From: Verrucomicrobiota bacterium
GTDB taxonomy: Bacteria; Verrucomicrobiota; Verrucomicrobiia; JAWXBN01
Length of the DNA stretch: 49,679 nt
Direction of reading: 5' to 3'
NCBI GenBank assembly: GCA_034440155.1
Contig: JAWXBN010000102.1
Coordinates: 1 to 49,679, forward strand
In this document: positions 4,609 to 18,234 of the stretch, one piece after another
Layout: each line of letters opens with the position of its first letter
How positions within the stretch are numbered: the first letter of the stretch is position 1
The notes under the pieces: generated by a model
Database searches by the model: none
The model's input: the letters and a program-made list of their open reading frames with translations, nothing else
What the model was told of the DNA's origin: nothing
Position numbers and translations under genes: made by a program

Positions 4609-5184
4609 TTAAATAATAATTTTAAAGCAATTTACTTTTATACCGGAGACCTTCAAATCGAGTTTCTCCATCGAAAATATTTTTTTAACCTTGGCTGTCA
4701 CGACATTTTCACTCACCAAGATTTCGTTAGTTTGGGCAAGGTCCTCTCCCAGTTTAGAGGCTTGATTGACTGCATCCCCGAAAAAATCTTTCCCGGGGAT
4801 CAATAACACTTCCCCGTAAGATATCCCCACACTGACTGAAACCCCGTCCCCTTTATGAGTCTGGAAATGTCGGACTACCTCGACGGAAGCTTGGAGCGCC
4901 TGCTCGGGCTTATCAAATACGGCATAAGCATTATCCGCCTCAAATTTTACAATCCGACCTTTATATTCGAGGATTTTTTTCTCGACGATTTGATGCATGA
5001 CACGGATTTTGCAGAGAAAATCGACGAGCCCATTACGTTGTACAGACACGGTAAATCCGCTCATGTCCAAGATAAAAACAGCTTTTTTGACACCAAATTT
5101 TTTCCAAAGCTCTTTTTCAAAGGACCTCCTTTGCAGCTTGGGTAGCTGTACACATTTGTCGATGTAGGCATAAAATTCTTTCAT
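4609..5184 (-). CDS. Class III nucleotidyl cyclase domain protein
   Basis: A 191-residue stand-alone adenylate/guanylate cyclase catalytic domain. Metal-binding Asp residues are at D40 (ILDMSGFT) and D84 (KFEADNAYAVF), with K80 at the base-recognition position. The second half has VSVGISYGEV and FFGDAVNQASKL with N140. The Arg that normally stabilises the transition state four residues after this Asn is Lys here (K144), so activity may be reduced. An N-terminal stretch of about 30 residues has no recognisable domain and there is no membrane segment. It starts 2 bases after plsC, so the two are probably translationally coupled. A cNMP-binding protein is encoded at 15780-17438. Confidence 0.8.
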   Translation of the reverse strand: MKEFYAYIDKCVQLPKLQRRSFEKELWKKFGVKKAVFILDMSGFTVSVQRNGLVDFLCKIRVMHQIVEKKILEYKGRIVKFEADNAYAVFDKPEQALQASVEVVRHFQTHKGDGVSVSVGISYGEVLLIPGKDFFGDAVNQASKLGEDLAQTNEILVSENVVTAKVKKIFSMEKLDLKVSGIKVNCFKIII

Positions 5185-13539: not shown

Positions 13540-15753
13540 ATGAAATACATAAAGAGACTTATCCTCCTCATCACCCTTTTCCTGATGACATTTGTGTCTT
13601 GTTTAAATACAAGCTCCGCCCAAGAAACTAAACCGAACTGGCCCCGACAAATCTCGAGTGCGTTAGGTCAAATCACCCTATATCAACCTCAGGTCTCCGC
13701 CCTTGAAGGCAATACTCTCACGGGTAAAACCGCCGTCTCGATAGCCCCGAAAAACGGCAGTGCCCCAGTCTTTGGAGCCGTTTGGTTCAGTGCCCAGATC
13801 GTGACGAGCTTGGATTCCCGCACATACACCCTCTCGAGTGTGAATATTACCCAATCAAAATTCCCAAATGTCGATAAATCCTTAAGTGACCAGATCAGCC
13901 AGTCCATCTCCCAGGAGGTTCCTTCTCTGAATATGACCCTTTCCCTTGACCAGCTCCTTGCCAGCTTAAAAACGGCTAAGACCCAACAAAAAGACGCCAA
14001 TAATCTGAGCACGGCACCTCCCACGATTATTTTCAGCCAGACACCCGCTGTATTGGTCTCAATCCAAGGCACTCCACAGCTCCAGCCTGTTCCCGACACC
14101 AAAGTCATGAGGGTAATGAATACCCCGTTTCTCATTGCTTTTGATCCCGCAAAAAAACTTTATTACCTCTGGATCGGCGGACAATGGCTCAGTGCGACCG
14201 ATATCCAAGGGAATTGGGAAATCACCTCCTCAGTCCCCCCTTCCGTCCAGAAATTAGCCAGCTCAAAATCCACTAATGCCGCAACGCAAGCAGGGTTCTA
14301 CCAGTCCTCGAATTTACCCCGTGTTATTGTCGCCACTTCCCCGACAGAATTAATTGTAACCGATGGAGTGCCGGATTATGCGACTATCCAGAGCACGAGT
14401 TTGCTTTATGTATCAAATACGACCAGTGACGTCTTTCTGGATATCGATAACCAGATAAATTATGTATTACTCTCCGGGCGTTGGTATAAATCTCCTTCCC
14501 TGTCCGGGCCGTGGATTTATGTCGCAGCAAATGCCCTCCCCCAGGATTTCACCCTGATCCCGGAAAACTCACCAAAGGCCAACGCGCTGGTCAGCGTAGC
14601 GGGTAGTCCCCAAGCTAAAGACGCCGTTTTGACTTCATCCATCCCCTCTACCGCCCAAGTCAAACCAAATGCCAAACCCCAGAATCCCGTCACCTACGCA
14701 GGTGGCCAACCTGAATTCAAACCGATCGAGACCACTCCCTTGCAATATGCGGTGAATACTTCCAGTCAAGTGATTATGGAGAACCCAAACTCGTATTATC
14801 TGTGTGCAGAAGGGATATGGTACCATTCCCAGACGTCCTTGGGACCTTGGGTGGTCGCCACATCTGTTCCCCAAGTGATTTATACCATTCCCCCATCCAG
14901 TCCGGTTTACAGTGCCACATACTGTTATGTCTATGCAGCCACCCCGGACTATGTGACCGTGGGTTATCTCCCCGGCTACACGGGCAGTTATGTCTATGGA
15001 GGAACGGTTGTTTATGGTACCGGCTGGGTTTATCCCCCCTATGTGGGAGTCGGGGTGTGTTATCCCGCCCCCTCCACCTTCGGTTTCAGTGTCGGTTACT
15101 CGAATGGCCAGTGGGCTTTTGGTGTCGGGTACAGCTCTGGCTTTGGCTCGGCCTGTTTTGCCTGGGGCGGTGGATCTTGGAATAATAACAACTGGTGGGG
15201 CCATGGTGGCTACCAACAAAACAACATCAATATCAATAACAACATAAACAACAGCTTTAATAAAAACAGCGGGAATATCTATAACAGGAATACCAGTAAC
15301 CTAATCAATAATGGCAAAATCAACAATCAACAGGCGAAGAATGATTGGAACAATGTCAAAAATAATCCTCAGGCACAAAAAGACTGGAATAATGCCAAAA
15401 ATAACCCGCAAGCCCAAAAGGATTGGAACAATGTCAAAAATAATCCTCAGGCACAAAAGGATTGGAATAACGCAAAAAATAATCCTCAGGCCAAAAACGA
15501 CTATCAAAATGCCAAGAATGATTATCAAAACCATTCAACCAATGATCCAGGGAAAAATAATGTTTTTGCCGATGACAAGGGTAATGTTTACAAACACACC
15601 CCTGACGGGTGGCAACAGCATGCCGGCGGACAGTGGAAAAACGCCCAAGGCCAGGATTTCGACCACCAACACCAACAATTAAATAATGACTACCGCGCCC
15701 GCTCATCGGGTTATAGCGGCTCCAGGGGTGGCGGATTCCGCGGACGTAGGTAA
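13540..15753 (+). CDS. Exported protein with repeated beta units and Asn-rich C-terminal repeats
   Basis: A 737-residue secreted protein. Residues 1-27 form a Sec signal peptide; FVSC could be an atypical lipobox, otherwise cleavage falls after SSAQ. Residues ~34-330 carry WPRQISSALGQITLYQPQV and EPVFGAVW-type strings seen in proteins annotated 'carbohydrate-binding family V/XII', with units such as YYLWIGGQWLSATDIQGNW that recur as LSGRWYKSPSLSGPW and EGIWYHSQTSLGPW. These look like three related WY-GPW beta units. Residues ~480-560 are Gly/Tyr/Val-rich, then an Asn-rich section with four 13-residue repeats and a final GFRGRR. No Shine-Dalgarno is visible. Role unknown; a surface or matrix protein is plausible. 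Confidence 0.75.
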   Translation: MKYIKRLILLITLFLMTFVSCLNTSSAQETKPNWPRQISSALGQITLYQPQVSALEGNTLTGKTAVSIAPKNGSAPVFGAVWFSAQIVTSLDSRTYTLSSVNITQSKFPNVDKSLSDQISQSISQEVPSLNMTLSLDQLLASLKTAKTQQKDANNLSTAPPTIIFSQTPAVLVSIQGTPQLQPVPDTKVMRVMNTPFLIAFDPAKKLYYLWIGGQWLSATDIQGNWEITSSVPPSVQKLASSKSTNAATQAGFYQSSNLPRVIVATSPTELIVTDGVPDYATIQSTSLLYVSNTTSDVFLDIDNQINYVLLSGRWYKSPSLSGPWIYVAANALPQDFTLIPENSPKANALVSVAGSPQAKDAVLTSSIPSTAQVKPNAKPQNPVTYAGGQPEFKPIETTPLQYAVNTSSQVIMENPNSYYLCAEGIWYHSQTSLGPWVVATSVPQVIYTIPPSSPVYSATYCYVYAATPDYVTVGYLPGYTGSYVYGGTVVYGTGWVYPPYVGVGVCYPAPSTFGFSVGYSNGQWAFGVGYSSGFGSACFAWGGGSWNNNNWWGHGGYQQNNININNNINNSFNKNSGNIYNRNTSNLINNGKINNQQAKNDWNNVKNNPQAQKDWNNAKNNPQAQKDWNNVKNNPQAQKDWNNAKNNPQAKNDYQNAKNDYQNHSTNDPGKNNVFADDKGNVYKHTPDGWQQHAGGQWKNAQGQDFDHQHQQLNNDYRARSSGYSGSRGGGFRGRR
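15343..15498 (+). repeat. Four tandem 39-bp repeats in coding sequence
   Basis: Units start at 15343, 15382, 15421 and 15460. Each encodes D-W-N-N-(V/A)-K-N-N-P-Q-A-Q-K with few substitutions, and V and A alternate from unit to unit. A diverged fifth unit (DYQNAKNDYQ) follows. The alternation suggests that the present array arose by duplication of a two-unit (78-bp) block. Confidence 0.9.
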
Positions 15754-15779
15754 TCTTCACGGGGCATTTTTACAATCAT

Positions 15780-17438
15780 ATGCTAAAGAATGATTCCATC
15801 CTCATGCTAAACCCTTCGCTGGAAAGGGTGACTTATGGCCGGGATGATGTCCTTTTGAAAGATCCCTCGCGTTTCCAATATCTTGTCGTGAACCCTACGG
15901 AGGAAGAAATCCTGAGAAAATTCGAGGGGAATGAGACAATCTCAACGGTTCTCGAAAACCTCATGAAGAGTACCTCGATCCCCTCGTTGGGGGCATTCTA
16001 CGATTTAGTGAATGAGGCTTGTGAAACAGGTATCCTCCAGAATAAAAACGGGGGAAAAATCTATTCACGGAAAAAATCATCAAGTACAAAAATCTCATTC
16101 CACTTCCTATCGGCCATATGGGTGATATTTATCGCTTTAACGCTCACATTGGGAATAAGCGTTATTTCAAATCACTCTGTTATCGTTGGTAGCACCCCTA
16201 GTTACTGGATTCATTTTTTTATCGGGACCATCCTTTCGGTGAGTATATCATCCATGGTGGCAATAGTCGCCCAGAGCAGCCTGGGCTCCACCCCCTTGAA
16301 TGTACACGTGAGCTGGAGGCGTATCCTGCCTTACCTGACCTATGATACGCGTGACTCGATTATCTTGGGACGTTGGAGGGAAAGCTTGGTCGCACTGGCA
16401 GGACTGACAGGCCCGTTTTTATTCCTCTTGGGAATTTATCTTTTCGAACATCATTTCAAGATTATATTGACGGCTAACGGGGTGGCTTATGATCCCCTTG
16501 TATATTTATCTGGTTTTTACCTGGCAGTTTGGTTTTCCCTGATTTTAATCACGATACCTTTTGGCGCTTCATGGGGACAAAATCTTGTCAGGAGCCTCTT
16601 CCGTAACCACAGGGATCTCCCCCATAAAATCCCTGATATTTCAGGTAATAATCTTTTTTCAGAACTCTTATATCTGAGTGATGAATTCAGGAACCAGCGT
16701 TATTATATCGCCTACATCACCTATTTGATTATCTGGCTGGGATTATTATTCCGTCTGAGCACTGAATTTGTCGCCGTCCAGTTTAATCAAGTGGTATCCA
16801 CCTTCCTTTTATCAGAAACATTCGGATTCAGGCTCTATTTTGTCGTTGGGATCATGGTTTTCGGCATCATTATTCTTACCCTTACGTTATTCTATGCCGT
16901 TTGGGCCATCGGAGCAGATTTCGCAAAAGAAATCATTCTTAAAAAAACCATTCTCCGTAAAACAATCCTCGCAAAAAAGGATAAAACCCTCGAGAACCTT
17001 ATTAAAAAAGAATGGCCTGACCAGATAACTGAAAAGCTCCAATTAGCCACCTTTATAGAAGAAGTTTCCCTTTTTGTTGATTGGACTCCCTCCGCCCATT
17101 TTTCCTTACTCAAAAAAATCCCCATTCAAGAGTTCCCCATTGATACTGTTTTAATTGAAGAGGATAAACCCAATCAGCATTTTTATCTCATCTTTGAGGG
17201 AGAAGTCATCGTAACCCGATCAGGGGAACCTGTTGCAAAACTTCATACACGTCATGTCTTCGGGGAGACAAGCATGCTCCAGAATATCCCCGCGACAGCC
17301 ACCGTCAAGGTCAGCCAACACCTCAAAGCTTTTGTTTTTGACCGCCCTCAATTCCTAGAAATTGCCACCAAGGATTTTATGACCGGTTACCTTCTGGACC
17401 TGTCATCCTCCGAAAGGAAAACGGAGGACTGGAAATGA
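15780..17438 (+). CDS. PqqD-like / M50-like membrane protein with C-terminal cyclic-nucleotide-binding domain
   Basis: A 552-residue protein in three parts. Residues ~10-95 resemble a PqqD-like winged helix (NPTEEEILRKFEGNETISTVLENL). Residues ~105-410 contain about six membrane segments whose arrangement follows the PqqD-linked M50 'peptide zinc metalloprotease' family, including RWRESLVALAGLTGPFLFLL, which matches the R-x-VALAGP block. The HExxH that should precede it is absent (SVSISSMVAIVAQSS at 153-167). Residues ~450-540 are a cyclic-nucleotide-binding domain (LIEEDKPNQHFYLIFEGEV, HVFGETSMLQNIPATATVK), with the Arg of the phosphate cassette not conserved in the usual place. I infer a non-proteolytic membrane protein. 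ATGA overlap to the next gene. Confidence 0.7.
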   Translation: MLKNDSILMLNPSLERVTYGRDDVLLKDPSRFQYLVVNPTEEEILRKFEGNETISTVLENLMKSTSIPSLGAFYDLVNEACETGILQNKNGGKIYSRKKSSSTKISFHFLSAIWVIFIALTLTLGISVISNHSVIVGSTPSYWIHFFIGTILSVSISSMVAIVAQSSLGSTPLNVHVSWRRILPYLTYDTRDSIILGRWRESLVALAGLTGPFLFLLGIYLFEHHFKIILTANGVAYDPLVYLSGFYLAVWFSLILITIPFGASWGQNLVRSLFRNHRDLPHKIPDISGNNLFSELLYLSDEFRNQRYYIAYITYLIIWLGLLFRLSTEFVAVQFNQVVSTFLLSETFGFRLYFVVGIMVFGIIILTLTLFYAVWAIGADFAKEIILKKTILRKTILAKKDKTLENLIKKEWPDQITEKLQLATFIEEVSLFVDWTPSAHFSLLKKIPIQEFPIDTVLIEEDKPNQHFYLIFEGEVIVTRSGEPVAKLHTRHVFGETSMLQNIPATATVKVSQHLKAFVFDRPQFLEIATKDFMTGYLLDLSSSERKTEDWK

Positions 17439-17899
17439 AAAACTTCCATTGGTTCCATCTCATTCGAGGTAAAAACTTTAGATTATTAAAGGTTATTCCT
17501 GTCATTGCACTCATTGGAGTCGTGTGGATGAATGCCGTCGTCCTGCATAAAGGCCTTTCGGGCGGCTGGACAAAGATTTCACAATTGGTCAACCAGCGGG
17601 ATATGCGCCTGATCGCCCGGTTAATAGCCGAAAACCCGGAAGAATGCCGTGACATGGATCAAAAAAGGCTTTCCCTTTATATCCGCTCCCAAATCAACAA
17701 GGATACACCCAGACTTCTCGGGCTCTTTGACTGGGATAAGGACATTTGGGGGCGGTCTTATACCATTGATATCCTCGCCGACAAAATCATTATTAAATCC
17801 TATGGTCCAGACAGGATCGTAGGAACAGATGATGATGCGCAATTTGTTCTCCCCCTGAAAACGGATGCCGATCAGGCACCGGCGGAGGTAGAGCCATGA
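17435..17899 (+). CDS. Membrane-anchored protein with GspG-like C-terminal domain
   Basis: A 154-residue protein with one N-terminal membrane helix (about 19-36, VIPVIALIGVVWMNAVVL). Its C-terminal half has DWDKDIWGRSYTIDIL and YGPDRIVGTDDDAQF, the pattern of the type II secretion major pseudopilin GspG: the DPWG-like turn and the Asp-rich calcium loop. It lacks the prepilin peptidase site (G-F-T-L-x-E), so it is not a normal pilin; the fold may have been reused. Overlaps the genes on both sides by ATGA, so the three must be made together. Confidence 0.65.
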   Translation: MKNFHWFHLIRGKNFRLLKVIPVIALIGVVWMNAVVLHKGLSGGWTKISQLVNQRDMRLIARLIAENPEECRDMDQKRLSLYIRSQINKDTPRLLGLFDWDKDIWGRSYTIDILADKIIIKSYGPDRIVGTDDDAQFVLPLKTDADQAPAEVEP

Positions 17900-18234
17900 G
17901 GTTCTCAATGCCCTCTTTTTTAAAACGGAAAACGCTTTTTTTAGTGTCGTTTCTCACAGGAGTTTTTATGACTGGAGCGGAACTCAAGGCAGCCTTTGTC
18001 GCCATTGCTGCCGAAGGTGATGTCGTCATCATCATTAGCGGAAAAAGAAAACAGGTAAATCCCGGCGACAAGGTTCCTAACGGGGCCGTGCTGATCACTG
18101 GCAAAGAATCTCAGGCGATCCTGCAATGGGAAGAATCCTTCGACCTTCAGGAGGTCACCCCCGAAACTAAAATAAAAATTTCCGGTAAAAAAATCATCGG
18201 TGGGGAATCAAAGAAAGTCCTAGAACACGAATAA
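17896..18234 (+). CDS. Small exported protein with FecR-like domain
   Basis: A 112-residue protein with an N-terminal signal sequence or anchor (LFLVSFLTGVFMTGAELKA) followed by a segment, AAEGDVVIIISGKRKQVNPG through DLQEVTPETKIKIS, that follows the FecR pattern (a GxV-x6-G-x4-L-x2-GD-x3-TG turn, then a beta-rich tail). FecR domains occur in outer-surface signalling and in exported polymer systems. It is the last gene of the ATGA-coupled set and is followed by a terminator-like hairpin. Exact role not readable. Confidence 0.6.
   Translation: MRFSMPSFLKRKTLFLVSFLTGVFMTGAELKAAFVAIAAEGDVVIIISGKRKQVNPGDKVPNGAVLITGKESQAILQWEESFDLQEVTPETKIKISGKKIIGGESKKVLEHE

Follow-up and report, generated by a model that had tools for sequence, protein, structure and literature searches.

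A conserved two-gene module of a pseudo-M50 membrane protein and a GspG-like partner in Verrucomicrobiota

Introduction

Site-2 proteases act upon single transmembrane (TM) helices. The PqqD-M50(-HlyD) intramembrane metalloproteases, described by NF041824 (daptide_HExxH) and NF058609 (YydH/LiaK), combine a PqqD-like N-terminus with an M50-type core. Bacteriocin-type transport-associated proteins (TIGR03896) carry a tandem pair of cNMP domains, and the major pseudopilin GspG (PF08334, TIGR01710) joins an N-terminal helix to a C-terminal motif, D.WG..Y...S.GPD..GT.DD. Proteins annotated as carbohydrate-binding family V/XII form a further point of comparison. Here, we describe a locus in which likenesses to all of these are encoded by adjacent genes. 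It lies in a window of 49,679 nucleotides (the whole stretch of DNA that was analysed), which is contig C102 of a 2.76-Mb Verrucomicrobiota genome (G000). An earlier note, made from the sequence alone, had grouped four genes of this window into a candidate surface system and guessed that they specify a regulated machine for exporting or assembling the first gene product. The suggestion that no described system has such features holds for genes 2 and 3, for whose combination the libraries searched contain no description. The open-access papers searched likewise yielded nothing relevant on PqqD together with a site-2 protease and a cNMP domain, on PqqD with M50 and pseudoproteases, on TIGR03896, on daptides with M50, or on cNMP domains with a pseudopilin.

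Organization of the locus

The four ORFs were re-found at the coordinates originally assigned to them:

13540..15753, + strand: gene 1, 737 aa, exported, of the carbohydrate-binding family V/XII type, with an Asn-rich repeat tail
15780..17438, + strand: gene 2 (product A), 552-aa membrane protein with a PqqD-like N-terminus, an M50-like membrane core without HExxH and one non-canonical cNMP-like domain
17127..17372, + strand: cNMP-like domain of gene 2, residues 450-531 (Pfam PF00027, E = 1.8e-10)
17435..17899, + strand: gene 3 (product B), 154 aa, single-TM, with the GspG-type C-terminal motif DIWGRSYTI...SYGPDRIVGTDDD
17896..18234, + strand: gene 4, 112 aa, exported, small, FecR/LapA-retention-like

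The proposed ATGA couplings are present as 4-nt overlaps at 17435 (genes 2 and 3) and 17896 (genes 3 and 4), and the 26-nt spacing after gene 1 corresponds to positions 15754-15779, a gap in which no terminator-like site was found. Elsewhere in the window, a 191-aa ORF on the minus strand (4609-5184) aligns with the latter half of PF00211, the class III cyclase domain (E = 1.9e-6), and is possibly a short cyclase-like protein adjoining transport genes.

Genes 2 and 3 are inherited together

Genes 2 and 3 form a real, conserved two-gene module. In each of the eight other members found of the gene 2 clade, a gene 3 homologue lies directly downstream of gene 2 (loci L037, L038, L039, L055/L145, L057/L146, L075, L076 and L079, the last showing only the start of gene 3 at a contig end). 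This clade spans several Verrucomicrobiota families. The nine gene 3-linked gene 2 sequences constitute a single clade in the tree with support of 100/100; gene 2 lineages outside it, Opitutaceae-like families among them, are without gene 3. The stop of gene 2 and the start of gene 3 overlap by 4 nt in seven of the nine loci (six of the eight besides the window), and in the two most distant clade members the genes are 93-99 nt apart. A profile search of a 388-genome sample of the phylum retrieved full-length gene 3 from G000, G172 and G399 only (E = 1e-49 to 1e-71). The next best match scored 3e-12, and most of the far weaker remainder covered little more than the GspG motif. All three genomes also have gene 2; with the window genome left out, the co-occurrence (Fisher p = 0.003) rests on two genomes, G172 and G399. 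The earlier placement of these two genes together is thus upheld by a pair kept throughout the clade.

Several loci showed individual features. At L076:2221-3015, the gene 3 homologue is fused C-terminally to a Sel1-like repeat. At L038:12287-13231, on the same strand and 3' of the pair, a gene encodes a protein with an FHA domain and, at its C-terminus, a weak likeness to class III cyclases, and is followed by one for a Sel1-like protein. The MAGs containing L075 and L076 are labelled Akkermansia muciniphila and Pedosphaera sp.; their gene 2 sequences are near-identical (branches 0.006 and 0.024), so one of the labels is probably wrong.

Gene 2 belongs to a proposed pseudo-M50 family

Pfam matched the cNMP domain alone in gene 2, leaving the PqqD-M50 part without a match. 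End-to-end alignment was obtained with same-class proteins of about 640-670 aa at ~25% identity or less, and the relatives fetched with names are from Verrucomicrobiota MAGs. When the PqqD-M50 part was used in a profile search, matches appeared in 24 of the 388 genomes, including the window's, mostly in family f12, which we provisionally take to be Opitutaceae-like. The same search reached two HEFGH proteins, L071 and L072 (E = 2e-6 and 3e-4), which NCBIfam relates to the daptide and YydH/LiaK metalloproteases. Profile-profile comparison of the gene 2 family with these two proteins, both genuine PqqD-M50-HlyD members, gave an alignment (hhalign 92%, E = 6.7e-7) that spans the PqqD region as well as that of the M50 motif, a kinship that supports the PqqD-like and M50-like assignments of the earlier note. 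Unlike these metalloproteases, the gene 2 family lacks HExxH in 23/23 aligned members, extending to the other members aligned an absence first remarked in the window copy. It also carries one or two cNMP domains in place of the HlyD part and, in one clade, is accompanied by gene 3. Judged by sequence, the gene 2 family is a pseudo-M50 family of predicted inactive membrane-protease relatives.

Structural searches of gene 2 were dominated by its cNMP domain. The predicted model (pLDDT 78, pTM 0.67) returned a Foldseek list against the PDB swamped by cNMP-bearing channels and kinase regulatory subunits, and the profile of the PqqD-M50 part found nothing meaningful among PDB sequences. The window copy sits on a long tree branch (1.67) and has an odd composition, so its role may have drifted. 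Because relatives in Opitutaceae-like families exist without gene 3, gene 2 has an independent role.

The canonical cNMP domain is missing from the window copy

Relatives of gene 2 carry two cNMP-like domains in tandem, whereas the window copy has one, which aligns with the second domain of the relatives; the first has been deleted. The first-domain cassette is canonical in the eight other clade members (FGE.[AS]L....R in 8/8, ending in PRT, or PRN in one), and the first domain is degenerate in 6 of the 14 family members outside the clade. A motif tally of the second domain showed GE kept and the phosphate-binding Arg absent in 23/23. In the window cassette, FGETSMLQNIPATAT, the Glu is likewise retained and the Arg replaced. 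The cNMP sensor of the earlier note therefore stands as a domain and falls as a canonical sensor, a candidate we rejected for want of the phosphate-binding Arg. With the first domain lost, the label of sensor is doubtful for this copy, and the cassette makes canonical cyclic-nucleotide binding by window A unlikely. Cyclic nucleotides may be available, given the class III cyclase matches in the window genome (five strong, one weak). The tandem arrangement recalls TIGR03896; matches to this family ranged from weak to moderate (E = 1e-5 to 3e-22), all below the cut-off, and the best was limited to the cNMP region. The window copy differs from TIGR03896 in having a single domain.

Relatives of gene 2 without gene 3 (L056, L065, L068, L073 and L041) adjoin response regulators that stand alone, identified by Pfam Response_reg at E = 1e-16 to 5e-22. 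In L065, L068 and L073, the regulator is upstream on the same strand, and the first cNMP domain is degenerate there too. For the gene 2 family as a whole, such neighbours beside several out-of-clade relatives favour signalling over surface assembly.

Gene 3 resembles GspG without its processing site

Complete gene 3 homologues carry the GspG-type motif or a close variant of it. Against PDB sequences, the gene 3 profile found GspG chains at E = 0.0005 (0.00048, T2SS protein G) and 0.005, with overall matches to PF08334 and TIGR01710 falling below their cut-offs. The predicted structure comprises a long helix and a small helix-strand domain, for which the best Foldseek match, GspG 3g20, was not significant. 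A prepilin peptidase site (Gly, a hydrophobic stretch and Glu at +5) was absent from the aligned gene 3 N-termini, confirming the description of a pilin-type C-terminus lacking a pilin signal. An ordinary GspG was rejected on this ground. Gene 3 further differs from GspG in having its own TM anchor and in being co-inherited with gene 2.

Genes 1 and 4 are neighbours in the window lineage

The gene 1 protein begins with a hydrophobic, signal-like segment (residues 4-22) and ends, as had been noticed, in an Asn-rich tail, here resolved into a 13-residue repeat of the NNPQAQKDWNNAK type (window 15209-15560; NNPQA at residues 608, 621, 634 and 647). Homologues occur in 26 of the 388 genomes, the window's included, with 29-45% identity in the 25 other Verrucomicrobiota genomes; those on proteobacterial plasmids, annotated as carbohydrate-binding family V/XII, share 35-40%. 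The repeat tail is lineage-specific, not being seen in the closest of these homologues. ORF lists of 24 gene 1 loci, read by eye, revealed no common neighbour. Apart from the window's own, no genome is common to the sets with gene 1 (25 others) and gene 2 (23 others) among the 388, and with the window left out there is no association either way (Fisher p = 0.38). None of the eight genomes with the gene 2-3 pair, some of them incomplete MAGs, gave a match to gene 1. The Asn-rich protein as cargo of the gene 2-3 module, a central element of the earlier proposal, was rejected on this 0/8 result, and gene 1 probably encodes a mere neighbour outside the module.

For gene 4, similarity to a FecR-type domain was recovered in weak form through NF033682 (E = 0.0011, below the cut-off, 19 of the 50 bits needed), and Pfam gave no match. 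Gene 4 was also unmatched in the eight pair genomes, a weaker negative since the gene is a short query and had no positive control. The search for the four-gene order in other genomes thus recovered the gene 2-3 core and not the set of four, an outcome that the earlier note had itself named as refuting its proposal: genes 1 and 4 adjoin the pair in the window lineage only.

Discussion

Our preferred reading, to which we give a probability of roughly 40%, is that A is a non-proteolytic, ancestrally cyclic-nucleotide-controlled scaffold holding B as its client. Genes 2 and 3 would form an inner-membrane module in which A, descended from PqqD-M50 peptide metalloproteases, would be a pseudoprotease by virtue of its lost catalytic residues. 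The membrane core of A probably still binds one TM helix, the likely ligand being the helix of the co-translated B; where a dead M50-type core and a single-TM protein are co-translated, the simplest interpretation is that the former holds the latter. B would be anchored by its N-terminal TM helix and would display, probably on the periplasmic side, a pilin head of the GspG type. In other clade members, the canonical cyclic-nucleotide domain of A would switch the A-B interaction. Since the window copy has lost that domain and kept the second, non-canonical one, its control is probably constitutive or exerted through another ligand. We infer the binding of B by A, the orientation, the switching and the function alike. 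In a bolder version, which we find rather doubtful, a pseudo-site-2 protease under cyclic-nucleotide control would grip or release, across the inner membrane, a pilin-like client of its own that is anchored in the membrane and co-translated with it; this would be a bacterial, M50-fold counterpart of the inactive rhomboids.

The GspG-type motif of B would also suit an accessory role for the pair in type II secretion or in a system like the type IV pilus, with B an unprocessed pseudopilin-like subunit or adaptor and A tuning assembly. The window genome does encode a GspF-like protein and ordinary pseudopilins (contig C105) and GspG (C93), but B lacks the prepilin cleavage motif and no T2SS or pilus genes were seen flanking the pair in the loci read, and we consider this explanation unlikely. 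Similarly improbable, in our judgment, is that A serves as a signalling receptor on which three inputs converge (a peptide at the PqqD-like domain, a nucleotide bound by the cNMP domains and a two-component signal), B being the periplasmic reader. The response regulators beside A-type genes in several Opitutaceae-like genomes and the FHA/cyclase-like gene at L038 point in this direction; the former, however, belong to the clade that lacks B, the latter has a cyclase-like domain scoring below the Pfam cut-off, and the ligand is putative.

Kinship with the PqqD-M50-HlyD relatives of the daptide and YydH/LiaK metalloproteases raises the prospect that A transports or chaperones a small ribosomal peptide, as in those cousins, while B aids export. 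This is quite unlikely, as A lacks an HlyD domain and has lost HExxH, and a non-systematic look noted no radical-SAM or precursor gene adjoining any pair. The original proposal of a single four-gene export or surface-assembly machine with the 737-aa protein as cargo draws on tight same-strand spacing, the terminator-free gap and the signal-like segment, but is highly improbable with gene 4 undetected and gene 1 homologues absent in the eight pair genomes, and with other gene 1 homologues residing where gene 2 does not.

One consequence is the removal of a misleading lead, in that the Asn-rich protein need not belong with the gene 2-3 machinery. If the scaffold reading of A and B is true, these Verrucomicrobiota would possess a conserved bacterial family of M50 pseudoproteases with a dedicated client, and the role of dead site-2 proteases would become genetically testable in bacteria.
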